Shown here: positions 7,078 to 64,000 of the stretch, in pieces
Layout of the letters: every line of letters starts with the position of its first letter
How positions within the stretch are numbered: the stretch's first letter is position 1
NCBI RefSeq assembly: GCF_004349135.1
Contig: NZ_SMFN01000003.1
Coordinates: 1 to 64,000, forward strand
Length of the DNA: 64,000 bases
Direction of reading: 5' to 3'
Origin: Flavobacterium sandaracinum
GTDB lineage: Bacteria > Bacteroidota > Bacteroidia > Flavobacteriales > Flavobacteriaceae
Program-made: the position numbers and the translations under genes
The notes under the pieces: model-generated
Databases searched by the model: none
What the model was told of the DNA's origin: nothing
What the model saw: only the letters and a program-made list of their open reading frames with translations

Positions 7078-7082
7078 AAATA

Positions 7083-7153
7083 GTTTAAAGTTTTTTTTGT
7101 TTAAAGTTTCAAGTTCAAGAACTGGCTACAACTTTAAACTTTAAACCTGAAAC
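7083..7153. repeat. Inverted repeat filling the thrA-thrB spacer
   Basis: Positions 7099-7115 and 7130-7146 form a stem of 17 positions with one mismatch; the outer 11 bp (GTTTAAAGTTT) are perfect. A further copy of GTTTAAAGTTT is at 7083-7093. The repeats occupy nearly all of the 84-bp spacer. No T-run follows that would make it a good terminator. It resembles the inverted repeats enclosing the four-helix-bundle gene at 62.8-63.2 kb in composition and in lying in an operon spacer. Confidence 0.6.
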
Positions 7154-7161
7154 AAAAAATC

Positions 7162-60333: not shown

Positions 60334-60377
60334 CAATAGCGCTGTCATTTTCTAATGAAAATCAAATATTATTTTAT

Positions 60378-62768
60378 ATGAAACGCACAATTAAAAAAGT
60401 TGCAGTAATTGGATCCGGAATTATGGGTTCAGGAATTGCCTGCCATTTTGCTAACATTGGAGTTGAAGTCCTATTATTAGACATTGTTCCAAGAGAACTG
60501 ACCGAAGCGGAAGCTAAAAAAGGTCTTACCTTAGAAAGCAAAATAGTAAGAAACAGATTAGTGAACGAGCATTTGGCCAATTCCCTGAAATCGAAACCCT
60601 CTCCTATTTACAGTCAGAAATTTGCCAGCAGAATCACAACTGGAAATACCACGGATGACATGGCGAAAATCGCTACTGTGGATTGGATTATTGAGGTTGT
60701 AGTGGAACGTTTGGACATCAAGAAAATGGTTTTTGAACAAATTGAAAAATTCAGAAAACCGGGAACTTTAGTTACTTCAAACACATCCGGAATTCCAATT
60801 CACTTTATGAGTGAAGGACGAAGCGATGATTTCCAAAAACACTTCTGTGGGACCCACTTTTTTAACCCTGCGCGTTATTTAAAATTATTCGAAATCATTC
60901 CTGGCCCACAAACTTCAACTGAAGTTTTGGATTTCCTTACAGATTATGGTTCTCGATTTTTAGGAAAAACTTCGGTCGTGGCCAAAGATACTCCGGCATT
61001 TATTGGAAACCGAATCGGGATTTACGGAATTCAAAGTTTGTTTCATTTGGTAAAAGAAATGGGATTAACGATTGAAGAAGTCGATAAATTGACTGGTCCA
61101 GTTATTGGTCGACCAAAATCAGCTACTTTTAGAACGGTTGATGTAGTTGGATTAGATACTTTGGTACACGTTGCCAACGGAATTTATGAAAACTGCCCAA
61201 ATGACGAACAACACGAGTTATTCAAACTTCCGGATTTCGTCAACAAAATGATGGAAAACAAATGGTTGGGAAGCAAAACAGGTCAAGGTTTTTATAAAAA
61301 AGTAGACAAAGATATTTTGTCTTTGGATTTAGATACTTTAGAATACCGTCCGGCTAAAAGAGCTTCATTTGCTACTTTGGAACTGACAAAAACGATTGAT
61401 AAACCAATTGACCGTTTTAAAGTTTTGGTAAAAGGAAAAGACAAAGCAGGCGAATTCTACCGTAAAAGTTTTGCAGGAATGTTTGCTTACGTTTCGAACA
61501 GAATTCCTGAAATCTCAGATGAATTATACAAAATTGACGATGCGATGAAAGCCGGTTTTGGATGGGAAAATGGTCCTTTCGAAATTTGGGATGCCATTGG
61601 TGTTGCAAAAGGAATCGAAATCATGAAAGCGGAAGGTCTTGAACCAGCTGCTTGGGTAAATGATATGTTGGCTTCTGGAAGTACAAGCTTTTATTCTGTA
61701 AAAGAAGGAGCAACTTTTTTCTACAATATTCCAACAAAATCACAAACTAAAGTTCCGGGACAGGATTCCTTTATTATCCTGAACAACATTCGCGAAAGCA
61801 AAAAAGTGTGGAGCAATAGCGGTGCAATTATACAAGATTTAGGAGACGGAATTTTGAATTTAGAATTCCAATCTAAAATGAATACGATTGGTGGCGATGT
61901 TTTACAAGCTATCAATAAAGCGATTGATTTATCTGAAAAAGAATATCAAGGATTGGTTATTGGAAATCAAGCAGCGAATTTCTCTGTTGGAGCCAATATC
62001 GGAATGATTTTCATGATGGCAGTGGAACAAGAATATGATGAGTTGAATATGGCCATCAAAATGTTCCAAGACACGATGATGCGCGTTCGTTATTCTGGAA
62101 TTCCTGTTGTGGTTGCGCCACACGGAATGACTTTTGGCGGTGGTTGCGAAATGAGCTTGCATGCGGATAAAGTAGTTGCTGCAGCAGAAACCTATATGGG
62201 ATTAGTAGAATTTGGTGTCGGTGTACTTCCAGGTGGTGGTGGATCGAAAGAAATGGCGTTGAGAGCATCGGATTTATTTCATAAAAATGACGTAGAGTTG
62301 AATGTTCTACAAGAGTATTTCTTGACCATTGCGATGGCAAAAGTGTCTACTTCAGGTTACGAAGCTTTTGATACTGGACTTTTACAAAAAGGGAAAGATA
62401 TTATTGTAGTGAATAAAGACCGTCAAATTGCTGAAGCAAAAAAACACGCTTTATTAATGGCAGAAGCCGGTTACACACAACCAATTCGAAGAACGGATGT
62501 AAAAGTTTTGGGTAAACAAGCTCTTGGAATGTTCTTAGTAGGAACAGACCAAATGGAAGCCGGAAAATACATCTCGGAACACGACAAGAAAATTGCTAAT
62601 AAACTGGCGTATGTAATGGCTGGTGGAGATTTATCAGAACCAACTTTAGTGAGCGAGCAGTATTTATTGGACATTGAAAGAGAAGCTTTCTTATCTCTTT
62701 GTACAGAAAGAAAAACATTAGAAAGAATTCAATTTATGTTAACCAAAGGGAAACCGCTACGAAACTAG
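60378..62768 (+). CDS. fadJ: 3-hydroxyacyl-CoA dehydrogenase / enoyl-CoA hydratase fusion
   Basis: This 796-residue bifunctional beta-oxidation enzyme has the dehydrogenase first: the NAD loop VAVIGSGIMGSGIACHF at 9-25 and the central THFFNPARYLKLFEIIPG motif. The hydratase domain is C-terminal, with GMTFGGGCEMSLHADKV and MGLVEFGVGVLPGGGGSKEM. The order is reversed relative to E. coli FadB/FadJ, as in other Bacteroidetes and Actinobacteria. It lies 44 bp after the MarR gene; the downstream partner fadI is separated by the four-helix-bundle cassette at 62777-63235. Confidence 0.92.
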   Translation: MKRTIKKVAVIGSGIMGSGIACHFANIGVEVLLLDIVPRELTEAEAKKGLTLESKIVRNRLVNEHLANSLKSKPSPIYSQKFASRITTGNTTDDMAKIATVDWIIEVVVERLDIKKMVFEQIEKFRKPGTLVTSNTSGIPIHFMSEGRSDDFQKHFCGTHFFNPARYLKLFEIIPGPQTSTEVLDFLTDYGSRFLGKTSVVAKDTPAFIGNRIGIYGIQSLFHLVKEMGLTIEEVDKLTGPVIGRPKSATFRTVDVVGLDTLVHVANGIYENCPNDEQHELFKLPDFVNKMMENKWLGSKTGQGFYKKVDKDILSLDLDTLEYRPAKRASFATLELTKTIDKPIDRFKVLVKGKDKAGEFYRKSFAGMFAYVSNRIPEISDELYKIDDAMKAGFGWENGPFEIWDAIGVAKGIEIMKAEGLEPAAWVNDMLASGSTSFYSVKEGATFFYNIPTKSQTKVPGQDSFIILNNIRESKKVWSNSGAIIQDLGDGILNLEFQSKMNTIGGDVLQAINKAIDLSEKEYQGLVIGNQAANFSVGANIGMIFMMAVEQEYDELNMAIKMFQDTMMRVRYSGIPVVVAPHGMTFGGGCEMSLHADKVVAAAETYMGLVEFGVGVLPGGGGSKEMALRASDLFHKNDVELNVLQEYFLTIAMAKVSTSGYEAFDTGLLQKGKDIIVVNKDRQIAEAKKHALLMAEAGYTQPIRRTDVKVLGKQALGMFLVGTDQMEAGKYISEHDKKIANKLAYVMAGGDLSEPTLVSEQYLLDIEREAFLSLCTERKTLERIQFMLTKGKPLRN

Positions 62769-62776
62769 AAATTTGA

Positions 62777-62805
62777 GTATTAAGGTTTGAGTATTAAGTA
62801 TCAAG
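62777..62805. repeat. Left inverted repeat of the four-helix-bundle cassette
   Basis: This 29-base arm pairs with 63207-63235: 26 Watson-Crick pairs, one G-T pair and two mismatches. It starts 9 bp after the fadJ stop and contains two copies of GTATTAAG. Confidence 0.85.
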
Positions 62806-62831
62806 AGTTAATAATTTAAGTAACGACAATT

Positions 62832-63188
62832 ATGCACCAATTTGAAAAATTAAAAATCTGGCAAAAAGCAATGGACATTACTGAAAATGTTTATCGGGCT
62901 TGCACTACTCTACCTCAAGAAGAAAAATTCAATCTTACTAGTCAAATGAAAAGATGTTCAGTTTCAATACCTTCAAATATTGCAGAAGGCTCTGGAAGAA
63001 ATTCTAAAAATGAATTTGCACATTTTTTAGGAATAGCTAATGGCTCAACTTTTGAATTGATAACTCAATTAATGATTTCTAAACGTCTTGGATTAATAGA
63101 TGAATTAAAAATTACACCAATAATAAATGAATTAGTCGAGGTGAGTAATATGAATTTTGCACTTCAAAAAACACTAAAAAACCAATAA
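62832..63188 (+). CDS. Four-helix-bundle protein of the 23S rRNA intervening-sequence family
   Basis: The 118-residue protein has MHQFEKLKIWQKAMDITENVYRA at the start and SQMKRCSVSIPSNIAEGSGRNSKNEFAHFLGIANGSTFEL near residues 36-75, the hallmark of the S23/IVP four-helix-bundle family, which was first found in intervening sequences of bacterial 23S rRNA. Relatives include the Avd accessory protein of diversity-generating retroelements, but no reverse transcriptase is present here. It is inserted between fadJ and fadI, two genes normally adjacent, and is enclosed by 29-bp inverted repeats. It is therefore better seen as a mobile cassette gene than as part of beta-oxidation. Molecular function is unknown. 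Confidence 0.9.
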   Translation: MHQFEKLKIWQKAMDITENVYRACTTLPQEEKFNLTSQMKRCSVSIPSNIAEGSGRNSKNEFAHFLGIANGSTFELITQLMISKRLGLIDELKITPIINELVEVSNMNFALQKTLKNQ

Positions 63189-63206
63189 TTATAACGATTG
63201 GGAAGT

Positions 63207-63235
63207 CTTAATACTTAATACTCCAATCTTAATAC
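63207..63235. repeat. Right inverted repeat of the four-helix-bundle cassette
   Basis: Reverse complement of 62777-62805 apart from three positions, ending 9 bp before the fadI ATG at 63245. In RNA it would close a stem around the four-helix-bundle frame. Confidence 0.85.
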
Positions 63236-63244
63236 TTTTTATAA

Positions 63245-64000
63245 ATGAAAACAGCCTATATAGTTAAAGCATACAGAACAGCCGTGGGGAAAGCTCCAAA
63301 AGGTGTGTTCAGATTCAAACGTCCTGATGAATTGGCAGCAGAAACCATCGAGTTCATGATGAATGAGTTGCCAGATTTCGACAAAAAACGTATTGATGAC
63401 GTAATGGTAGGAAATGCAATGCCAGAAGCCGAACAAGGTTTAAACGTGGGACGATTGATTTCCTTAATGGGATTGAAAATTGAAGACGTTCCGGGTGTAA
63501 CCGTAAATCGTTATTGCGCGTCTGGATTAGAAACAATTGGTATGGCTACAGCCAAAATACAATCGGGAATGGCAGATTGTATTATAGCCGGTGGTGCCGA
63601 AAGCATGAGTTTTATTCCAATGGGAGGCTATAAACCTACTCCGGATTATGCTGTTGCAAAAGCGGGTAACGAAGATTACTATTGGGGAATGGGACTAACT
63701 GCTGAAGCGGTTGCCAAACAATTCAATGTATCTCGTGCGGACCAAGATGAGTTTGCTTATAACTCACACATGAAAGCCTTGAAAGCACAAGCCGAAGGTA
63801 AATTTGACAAACAAATTGTTCCTATTACAGTAGAACAAACGTTTATCAACGAGAACGGTAAAAAAGAAACTAAATCGTATATCGTAAATAAAGATGAAGG
63901 TCCTAGAGCGGGAACTTCTGTAGAAGCTTTGGCAGGTTTAAGACCAGTTTTTGAAGCGAACGGAAGCGTAACTGCAGGAAACTCTTCTCAGATGAGTGAT
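63245..64000 (+). CDS. fadI: Acetyl-CoA acyltransferase (thiolase), partial at window end
   Basis: Reading from ATG 63245 gives 252 residues to the window edge, in frame. It is the thiolase that completes beta-oxidation by releasing acetyl-CoA. Cys91 in VNRYCASGLETIG is the acylated cysteine, and IIAGGAESMSFIPMGG is typical. The start MKTAYIVKAYRTAVGKAPKG follows closely after the right inverted repeat of the cassette. The C-terminal His and Cys of the active site lie outside the window. Together with fadJ it forms the usual trifunctional set. Confidence 0.93.
   Translation, partial: MKTAYIVKAYRTAVGKAPKGVFRFKRPDELAAETIEFMMNELPDFDKKRIDDVMVGNAMPEAEQGLNVGRLISLMGLKIEDVPGVTVNRYCASGLETIGMATAKIQSGMADCIIAGGAESMSFIPMGGYKPTPDYAVAKAGNEDYYWGMGLTAEAVAKQFNVSRADQDEFAYNSHMKALKAQAEGKFDKQIVPITVEQTFINENGKKETKSYIVNKDEGPRAGTSVEALAGLRPVFEANGSVTAGNSSQMSD

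Follow-up and report, generated by a model that had tools for sequence, protein, structure and literature searches.

A candidate mobile hairpin cassette with an S23 gene between fatty-acid oxidation genes of Flavobacterium sandaracinum

At its end, the 64,000-nt stretch of the Flavobacterium sandaracinum genome analyzed here (the window) carries an operon for fatty-acid oxidation, in which the spacer between the fadJ-like and fadI-like genes holds a gene of the S23 family enclosed by inverted arms. We lean towards reading this feature as a mobile, intercistronic hairpin cassette with a ring-forming protein that would recognize the cassette's own arms. The cassette occupies the spacer, extending from the stop codon of one gene to just before the start codon of the next, the arms belong to the S23 gene, the content of the spacer differs between sister species, and the history of S23 conflicts with that of the flanking genes. 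Mobility of the cassette is supported, but it is site-loyal. The class to which it belongs comprises small cassettes located between operon genes across Bacteroidota, each with inverted arms that repeat a degenerate 7- or 8-nt unit some four to five times, and it occurs in two forms, an autonomous one with an S23 gene in the middle and an ORF-less one without S23. More tentatively, these cassettes may constitute a new class of mobile elements, intercistronic homing hairpins, in which a ring-forming S23 protein would go with a private 7–8-nt unit repeated in both arms at about one unit per subunit, nonautonomous hairpins would share that unit, housekeeping genes across Bacteroidota would be the usual neighbors, and the intervening sequences (IVSs) of rRNA would be one branch.

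The cassette, its protein, and its neighbors

The operon consists of a MarR-like gene (judged from the protein), the fadJ-like gene, the S23 gene, and the fadI-like gene (Table 1). The original prediction, which was made from the sequence alone, had placed the gene between fadJ and fadI; the location and the fatty-acid oxidation neighbors hold, but "fadJ" is only a convenient label, because the upstream protein carries its dehydrogenase part N-terminally and its hydratase part last, the reverse of the domain order of E. coli FadJ, and falls below the cutoff of all 25 NCBIfam models among the matches listed. The statement that the cassette occupies almost the whole spacer is correct (the flanking genes end at 62768 and start at 63245), and counting by hand reproduces the predicted pairing of arms 62777–62805 and 63207–63235 at 27 of 29 positions, namely 26 Watson-Crick pairs and one G-T. 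A repeat finder lengthens these arms to 34 nt with 88% complementarity, each arm being itself a tandem array of degenerate 7-nt units, and the sole ORF of at least 60 aa between them is S23.

Table 1. Features of the cassette and related elements in the window
Feature	Position	Strand	Remarks
Whole cassette	62769..63244	+	Entire spacer, from fadJ-like stop codon to fadI start codon
Left arm	62776..62809	+	7-nt units AGTATTA AGGTTTG AGTATTA AGTATCA AGAGTT; best lag 7
S23 / 23S-IVP four-helix-bundle gene, 118 aa	62832..63188	+	PF05635 and TIGR02436 matches
Right arm, inverted copy of left arm	63203..63236	+	Repeat finder
Upstream neighbor, 3-hydroxyacyl-CoA dehydrogenase / enoyl-CoA hydratase (fadJ/fadB-like)	60378..62768	+	Domain matches
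Downstream neighbor, acyl-CoA thiolase (fadI-like), continues past window end	63245..64000	+	Domain match
MarR-fadJ spacer, 44 nt, without insert	60334..60377	+	585-nt S23 cassette there in relative G040
ORF-less hairpin, 7-nt units GTTTAAA/GTTTCAA, between two co-directional window ORFs	7078..7161	.	

Assignment of the protein to the four-helix-bundle family of 23S-IVPs, also part of the prediction, is confirmed by its matches to PF05635 (3.4e-38, 130.6 bits against a cutoff of 33.8, positions 1–103 of 106) and TIGR02436 (5.9e-36). The solved relatives 2gsc and 2rld contain five chains each as deposited, and in the relevant passages of the literature the Xanthomonas S23 structure is reported as a homopentamer and the function of S23/IVP proteins is still described as not known (PMC4990558). 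The window gene is under purifying selection and its protein is in use: its dN/dS is 0.10–0.19 versus seven relatives, and over sampled site pairs the median is 0.19 with a 90th percentile of 0.39 (241 of 400 pairs having a usable dS).

The window genome (G000) contains 11 PF05635 genes, of which nine are uninterrupted across the match and two have internal stops (L002, G000:C2:50591–50938, which adjoins a gene read as nadD, and L287, G000:C8:92040–92249). Seven of the first nine S23 genes found in this genome have an inverted flank match of at least 14 under a separate scoring, and the arm units mostly differ among these nine. One S23 gene (L006, G000:C63:43336–43575) has very long arms, with 164 nt of 7-nt units (AACCGAA/AACGGAA) per side. 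Just past the window end lies a second S23 gene (L008, G000:C23:64465–64755), divergent and 23% identical to that of the window, which sits directly after the thiolase gene and before an acyl-CoA dehydrogenase-like gene. The corresponding spacer of relatives carries two or more S23 types, whose arms differ.

Arms, repeat units, and hairpins without a gene

Relatives of the window S23 are present at E ≤ 1e-12 in 54 of 61 genus genomes, and PF05635 is present in 44 of 61 genomes across the phylum Bacteroidota. Inverted flanks scoring at least 16 accompany 78 of 114 S23 loci of the genus, versus 15 of 684 mismatched locus pairs; the 114 are the unique loci kept from 138 S23 hits after duplicates and short flanks were left out, hits without an ATG start or without a stop having been excluded beforehand. 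The window element scores 26, and the threshold of 16 is reached by 0 of 46 other window genes (best score, 15) and by 2 of 19 other genes in named loci, while arms occur in 49 of 79 named S23 relatives. At the level of the phylum, 12 of 20 usable loci have arms (20 of 30 loci were kept, 10 being dropped at the ORF filter), including 10 of 16 outside the genus, versus 2 of 200 mismatched pairs.

Of 73 elements from 29 sites, 46 have a best period of 7 and 20 one of 8, and these 66 elements have a median of 4.7 units per arm (middle half, 4.0–5.3). Agreement between arms is 82% in the paired register and 66% when they are shifted by one unit (129 elements). Arm units go with S23 lineages across sites, two of the types being GTATTAAG and AGAATAG. 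At S23 identities above 0.60, 82% of 190 cross-site pairs share arm 6-mers above 0.15, and below 0.45 just 0.5–4% of the pairs per bin do so, in a comparison whose pairs are non-independent and come in large part from few site pairs. At the two largest sites, an element's own arms match each other at 18.5 and 16.6, versus 17.3 and 15.1 for arms of the same lineage from other species, and own arms match clearly better at three further sites. What stays constant is chiefly the motif of the lineage, not exact pairing. This motif accounts for much of the arm match, which counts against the mobile-cassette reading.

AG is the most enriched dinucleotide in the arms (1.51). The idea of a universal AG motif was modeled on TRAP, a ring protein with RNA wrapped around it, and was rejected; AG is the dinucleotide that most often ranks as best conserved, yet it does so at just 6 of 27 sites.

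Unique S23 elements from the fetched loci number 204 and correspond to 35 sites, at 30 of which the gene usually points the same way as both neighbors (neighbors being defined as the longest open fragments). Co-directional genes flank 20 of the 27 window spacers of 40–400 nt, so that about 37% both-side co-direction would be expected if the orientation of S23 were random. Fragments next to S23 at some sites belong to sdhA/sdhB, groES/groEL, gmk/nadD, hemF/hemB, panB, and dapB, and a published table for F. columnare includes a four helix bundle gene flanked by guanylate kinase and nadD (PMC5524665, in the part bearing on this locus). Among the open-license literature matches listed (titles and beginnings of abstracts, without bioRxiv), none reports S23 cassettes residing in operon spacers.

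This operon-wise arrangement agrees with the alternative that the cassette is a 23S-type IVS now residing in an mRNA, where RNase III would cut the arm stem, free the S23 message, and leave the messages of the neighbors intact, with selection keeping the stem. The protein family and the build are those of rRNA intervening sequences, as far as these are described in PMC4990558, and the cassette as RNA folds at −93.7 kcal/mol (z −3.6 versus 100 shuffles). The mismatches in the stem argue otherwise, with 103 G-U versus 106 A-C in 78 S23 elements and 12 versus 31 in 25 ORF-less hairpins. Since G-U mismatches are no more common than A-C, nothing here points to an RNA helix as the object of selection, and the proposal that the paired arms are kept by selection as an RNA stem is unsupported; nor does any Rfam family match at E ≤ 1 within 62000–64000. 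We regard an IVS working in mRNA as unlikely.

Hairpins without a gene also count in favor of the mobile-cassette reading. The one in the window has a palindrome score of 18 (best of 15 shuffles, 11), and other contigs of the genome carry hairpins with the element's own GTATTAAG unit and no S23 between co-directional ORFs (C64 and C12), as well as one with mixed units (C37). These hairpins share the arm unit of the window element and not its exact sequence, and copies with like arms and different neighbors, which the prediction had called for, thus exist in ORF-less form. The GTATTAAG-unit motif was found in 28 of 61 genus genomes, with the reversed control pattern, which resembles a 7-nt-unit motif, giving many hits in some genomes and thus not serving as a clean control. 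As 22 of the 28 are among the 55 genomes without the window S23 type (at least 65% identity), the hairpins can occur without a resident S23 of that type, and their strict dependence on one is unsupported.

Elements that did change site took their arms with them: the relative G040 carries two S23 copies, one in the MarR-fadJ spacer and one in the fadJ-fadI spacer, which have 97% protein and 85% DNA identity, one arm unit, and a dN/dS of 0.018 (rough, with dS > 1). None of the 21 other MarR-fadJ loci, the window included, matches this S23; 16 of these spacers are measurable and span 12–135 nt, too short for an S23 gene, and the other five came out as length 0 and count as unmeasured. In G048, the sister of G040, the MarR-fadJ spacer contains a 99-nt ORF-less hairpin. 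The site-0 hairpin matches the site-1 arms of the same genome with p 0.0004, based on 10 genomes only and on linked loci. A BLAST search for copies of one ORF-less hairpin returned one match in each of five genomes, all at the same spacer.

Turnover of the fadJ-fadI spacer and history of S23

The fadJ-fadI spacer was compared in 57 of 59 genus loci, with one genome per species (G031 and G037 were left out, and L069 was unusable). It spans 3–575 nt in 54 of the 57, and in two it is disrupted, at 1029 and 1311 nt. The window S23 type is intact in six and present as disrupted remnants in two (L076 and L092, the latter recognized by eye only), a second S23 type with other arms occupies three, and one has a longer repeat array. 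A further 33 spacers are of hairpin length without a gene, 25 of them with a palindrome score of at least 12, and 11 measure 3–29 nt. Seven of these 11 are only 3–5 nt long, so the empty sites that the prediction had pointed to do occur in relatives and the cassette is not fixed; the sister genomes L078 and L084 have 443 nt with S23 and 3 nt, respectively. No target duplication was identified, the empty 3–5-nt spacers being too short to define one.

The remnants at L076 (G005) and L092 (G025) are interrupted by short palindromes such as GCTCCGTAGGAGC and by an ORF, presumably a REP-associated tyrosine transposase judging from its appearance. Other hairpin families in fad spacers (L012, L026, L039, L077, L070, L020, and others) are of the CCCCCTAACCCCC...GGGGGTTAGGGGG and TGTCATTCCGACGAAGGAGGAATC types, and the ORF-less hairpins of L012, L026, and L087 seemingly have no 7-nt units.

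Spacer content tracks the species tree weakly. Six classes of spacer state, assigned by eye, require 25 changes on the flanking-gene tree (56 rows) versus 29.9 for shuffled labels, which were as low in 2 of 200 cases, and the window S23 type, remnants included, accounts for 8 changes across 8 rows, a number not exceeded under shuffled labels. Divergence of S23 correlates with that of fadI at this site (rho 0.31–0.37, 900 sampled pairs), and this correlation together with the weak clustering of states indicates that part of the cassette history is vertical. At the same time, of 19 unique S23 splits supported at 90 or higher, 13 are incompatible with comparably supported splits among the flanks (6 of 11 at 95). 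Forcing the nine closest S23 carriers into one group is rejected on the flank tree (AU p 2e-41, for a group picked from the S23 tree). A second AU test, with 18 rows and two species groups, gives no contrast because both trees reject (S23 tree, 7.7e-7; flank tree, 2.9e-4). The conflict between S23 and flank trees suggests that the cassette was transferred from species to species into one and the same spacer.

The mobility put forward in the original prediction is supported by the conflicting histories, but this S23 lineage stays mostly at one spacer and does not roam freely: 66 of the best 80 relatives of the window S23, out of 119 named loci, lie at fadJ-fadI, with carriers ranging from Flavobacterium to Gelidibacter, Polaribacter, and Leeuwenhoekiella. 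Cultured species with the cassette at this position include Flavobacterium granuli and F. cucumis (L183, L208). S23 lineages in general are site-loyal, with 37 site changes for 35 sites (minimum, 34; shuffled, 100), as counted for 134 of the 204 elements with at most 22 per site on a tree with long branches.

This site loyalty, together with the conservation of the flanking genes, would also fit homologous recombination in those genes as the process that moves cassettes between species, S23 being a passenger of fast-changing spacer hairpins; gene-less spacers of hairpin length do outnumber intact S23 cassettes at this site (33 vs. 9 of 57). Three tests gave no signal of co-moved flanking DNA, although old transfers would have lost such tracts, and one of them showed a small drop within 75 nt of the spacer, based on six genomes. 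Further points against this reading are that the arm unit tracks the S23 lineage across sites and that the S23 protein is maintained under selection, and we consider recombination of this kind improbable as the explanation. ORF-less spacers likewise suggest passage between species: six pairs show a likeness of 85% or more, and in four of them the species are only 54–61% alike at fadI third positions, whereas in two they are closer; selection on the hairpin could also explain such likeness in distant species. Least probable of all is a vertically inherited operon gene with an autoregulatory stem that was lost many times, its scatter reflecting loss and not movement, which would suit the concentration of this S23 type at fadJ-fadI in many Flavobacteriaceae, the purifying selection, the strong site loyalty, and the weak clustering and correlation with fadI, but which is contradicted by the disagreement of the S23 and flank trees at 13 of 19 unique strong splits and in the AU test, by unrelated S23 types with their own arms in the same spacer, and by the second copy in another spacer of G040.

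Proposed mechanism and comparison with known systems

Under the mobile-cassette reading, the S23 protein, whose solved relatives are pentameric rings, would bind the repeated units at about one unit per subunit and thereby bring both arms together. The cassette would then be copied into the equivalent spacer of another genome in a homing-like manner and only rarely into a new spacer, and the ORF-less hairpins may be either mobilized in trans or relics. Position and orientation would be filtered by selection, with intergenic and operon-wise insertions being tolerated and providing S23 with a host promoter. The correspondence between four to five units per arm and a ring of five subunits is suggestive. 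The many S23 lineages, each with its own arm unit, amount to a natural specificity experiment that makes the nucleic-acid target of the fold directly testable, and the same would apply to the target of Avd, given its likely homology with S23. Such cassettes, of which the window genome has 11 genes, would also explain a fast-changing part of the operon spacers of Bacteroidota.

The closest known counterparts are the S23-encoding IVSs in the 23S rRNA genes of Leptospira and Coxiella, for which the relevant passages describe an ORF between complementary ends (a 28-bp stem in Coxiella), a patchy distribution, and horizontal transfer (PMC4990558). The window cassette resembles them in its protein family (PF05635), in an ORF enclosed by pairing ends, as seen in the length, complementarity, and folding of its arms, and in patchy horizontal spread. 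It differs in lying outside an rRNA gene, in the mRNA spacer between two fatty-acid oxidation genes, and in that its arms are tandem 7–8-nt arrays whose unit varies by lineage, with ORF-less versions in the same spacers. We liken the cassette to an IVS in its working and do not place it in that class, because its location differs and cutting by RNase III is unsupported.

Insertions in the rRNA genes of CPR bacteria include IVP ORFs at several sites and both ORF-containing and ORF-less inserts at one site, according to the sections of PMC11270868 that deal with them. The coexistence of cassettes with and without an ORF at one site is similar; in contrast, the CPR insertions lie in rRNA genes and mostly carry homing endonuclease ORFs, and those sections mention no arms of this type (PMC11270868). 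Intergenic TAACTGA heptamer repeats in Beggiatoaceae, Cyanobacteria, and some Bacteroidetes, for which horizontal spread is suspected in the parts of PMC4679880 that treat their distribution, are likewise intergenic with 7-nt units; unlike the cassette arms, they are described there as repeats of a single unit in direct orientation, apart from one indirect repeat. The terms S23, 23S, and four helix are absent from the text of PMC4679880.

Homology of S23 with Avd, the accessory protein of diversity-generating retroelements, is called likely in the pertinent part of PMC10053308. The window S23 scores 24.2 bits against the NCBIfam Avd model, well short of its cutoff of 80, and, unlike Avd, it has metabolic genes on both sides. 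An IVP gene between the operon genes cmr3 and cmr2 inside a cas locus has been read as having a CRISPR-associated function (PMC3936711, in the section on this locus), and the S23 gene of the window similarly lies between two operon genes. The Pleurocapsa cmr3-IVP-cmr2 arrangement in that section (PMC3936711) raises the possibility that IVP genes in cas operons are intercistronic passengers and not CRISPR functions. Finally, the cassette has in common with transposons and MITEs that inverted repeats are shared by copies at different sites, as seen in the hairpins on C64 and C12 and in the cross-site arms of closely related S23 elements.
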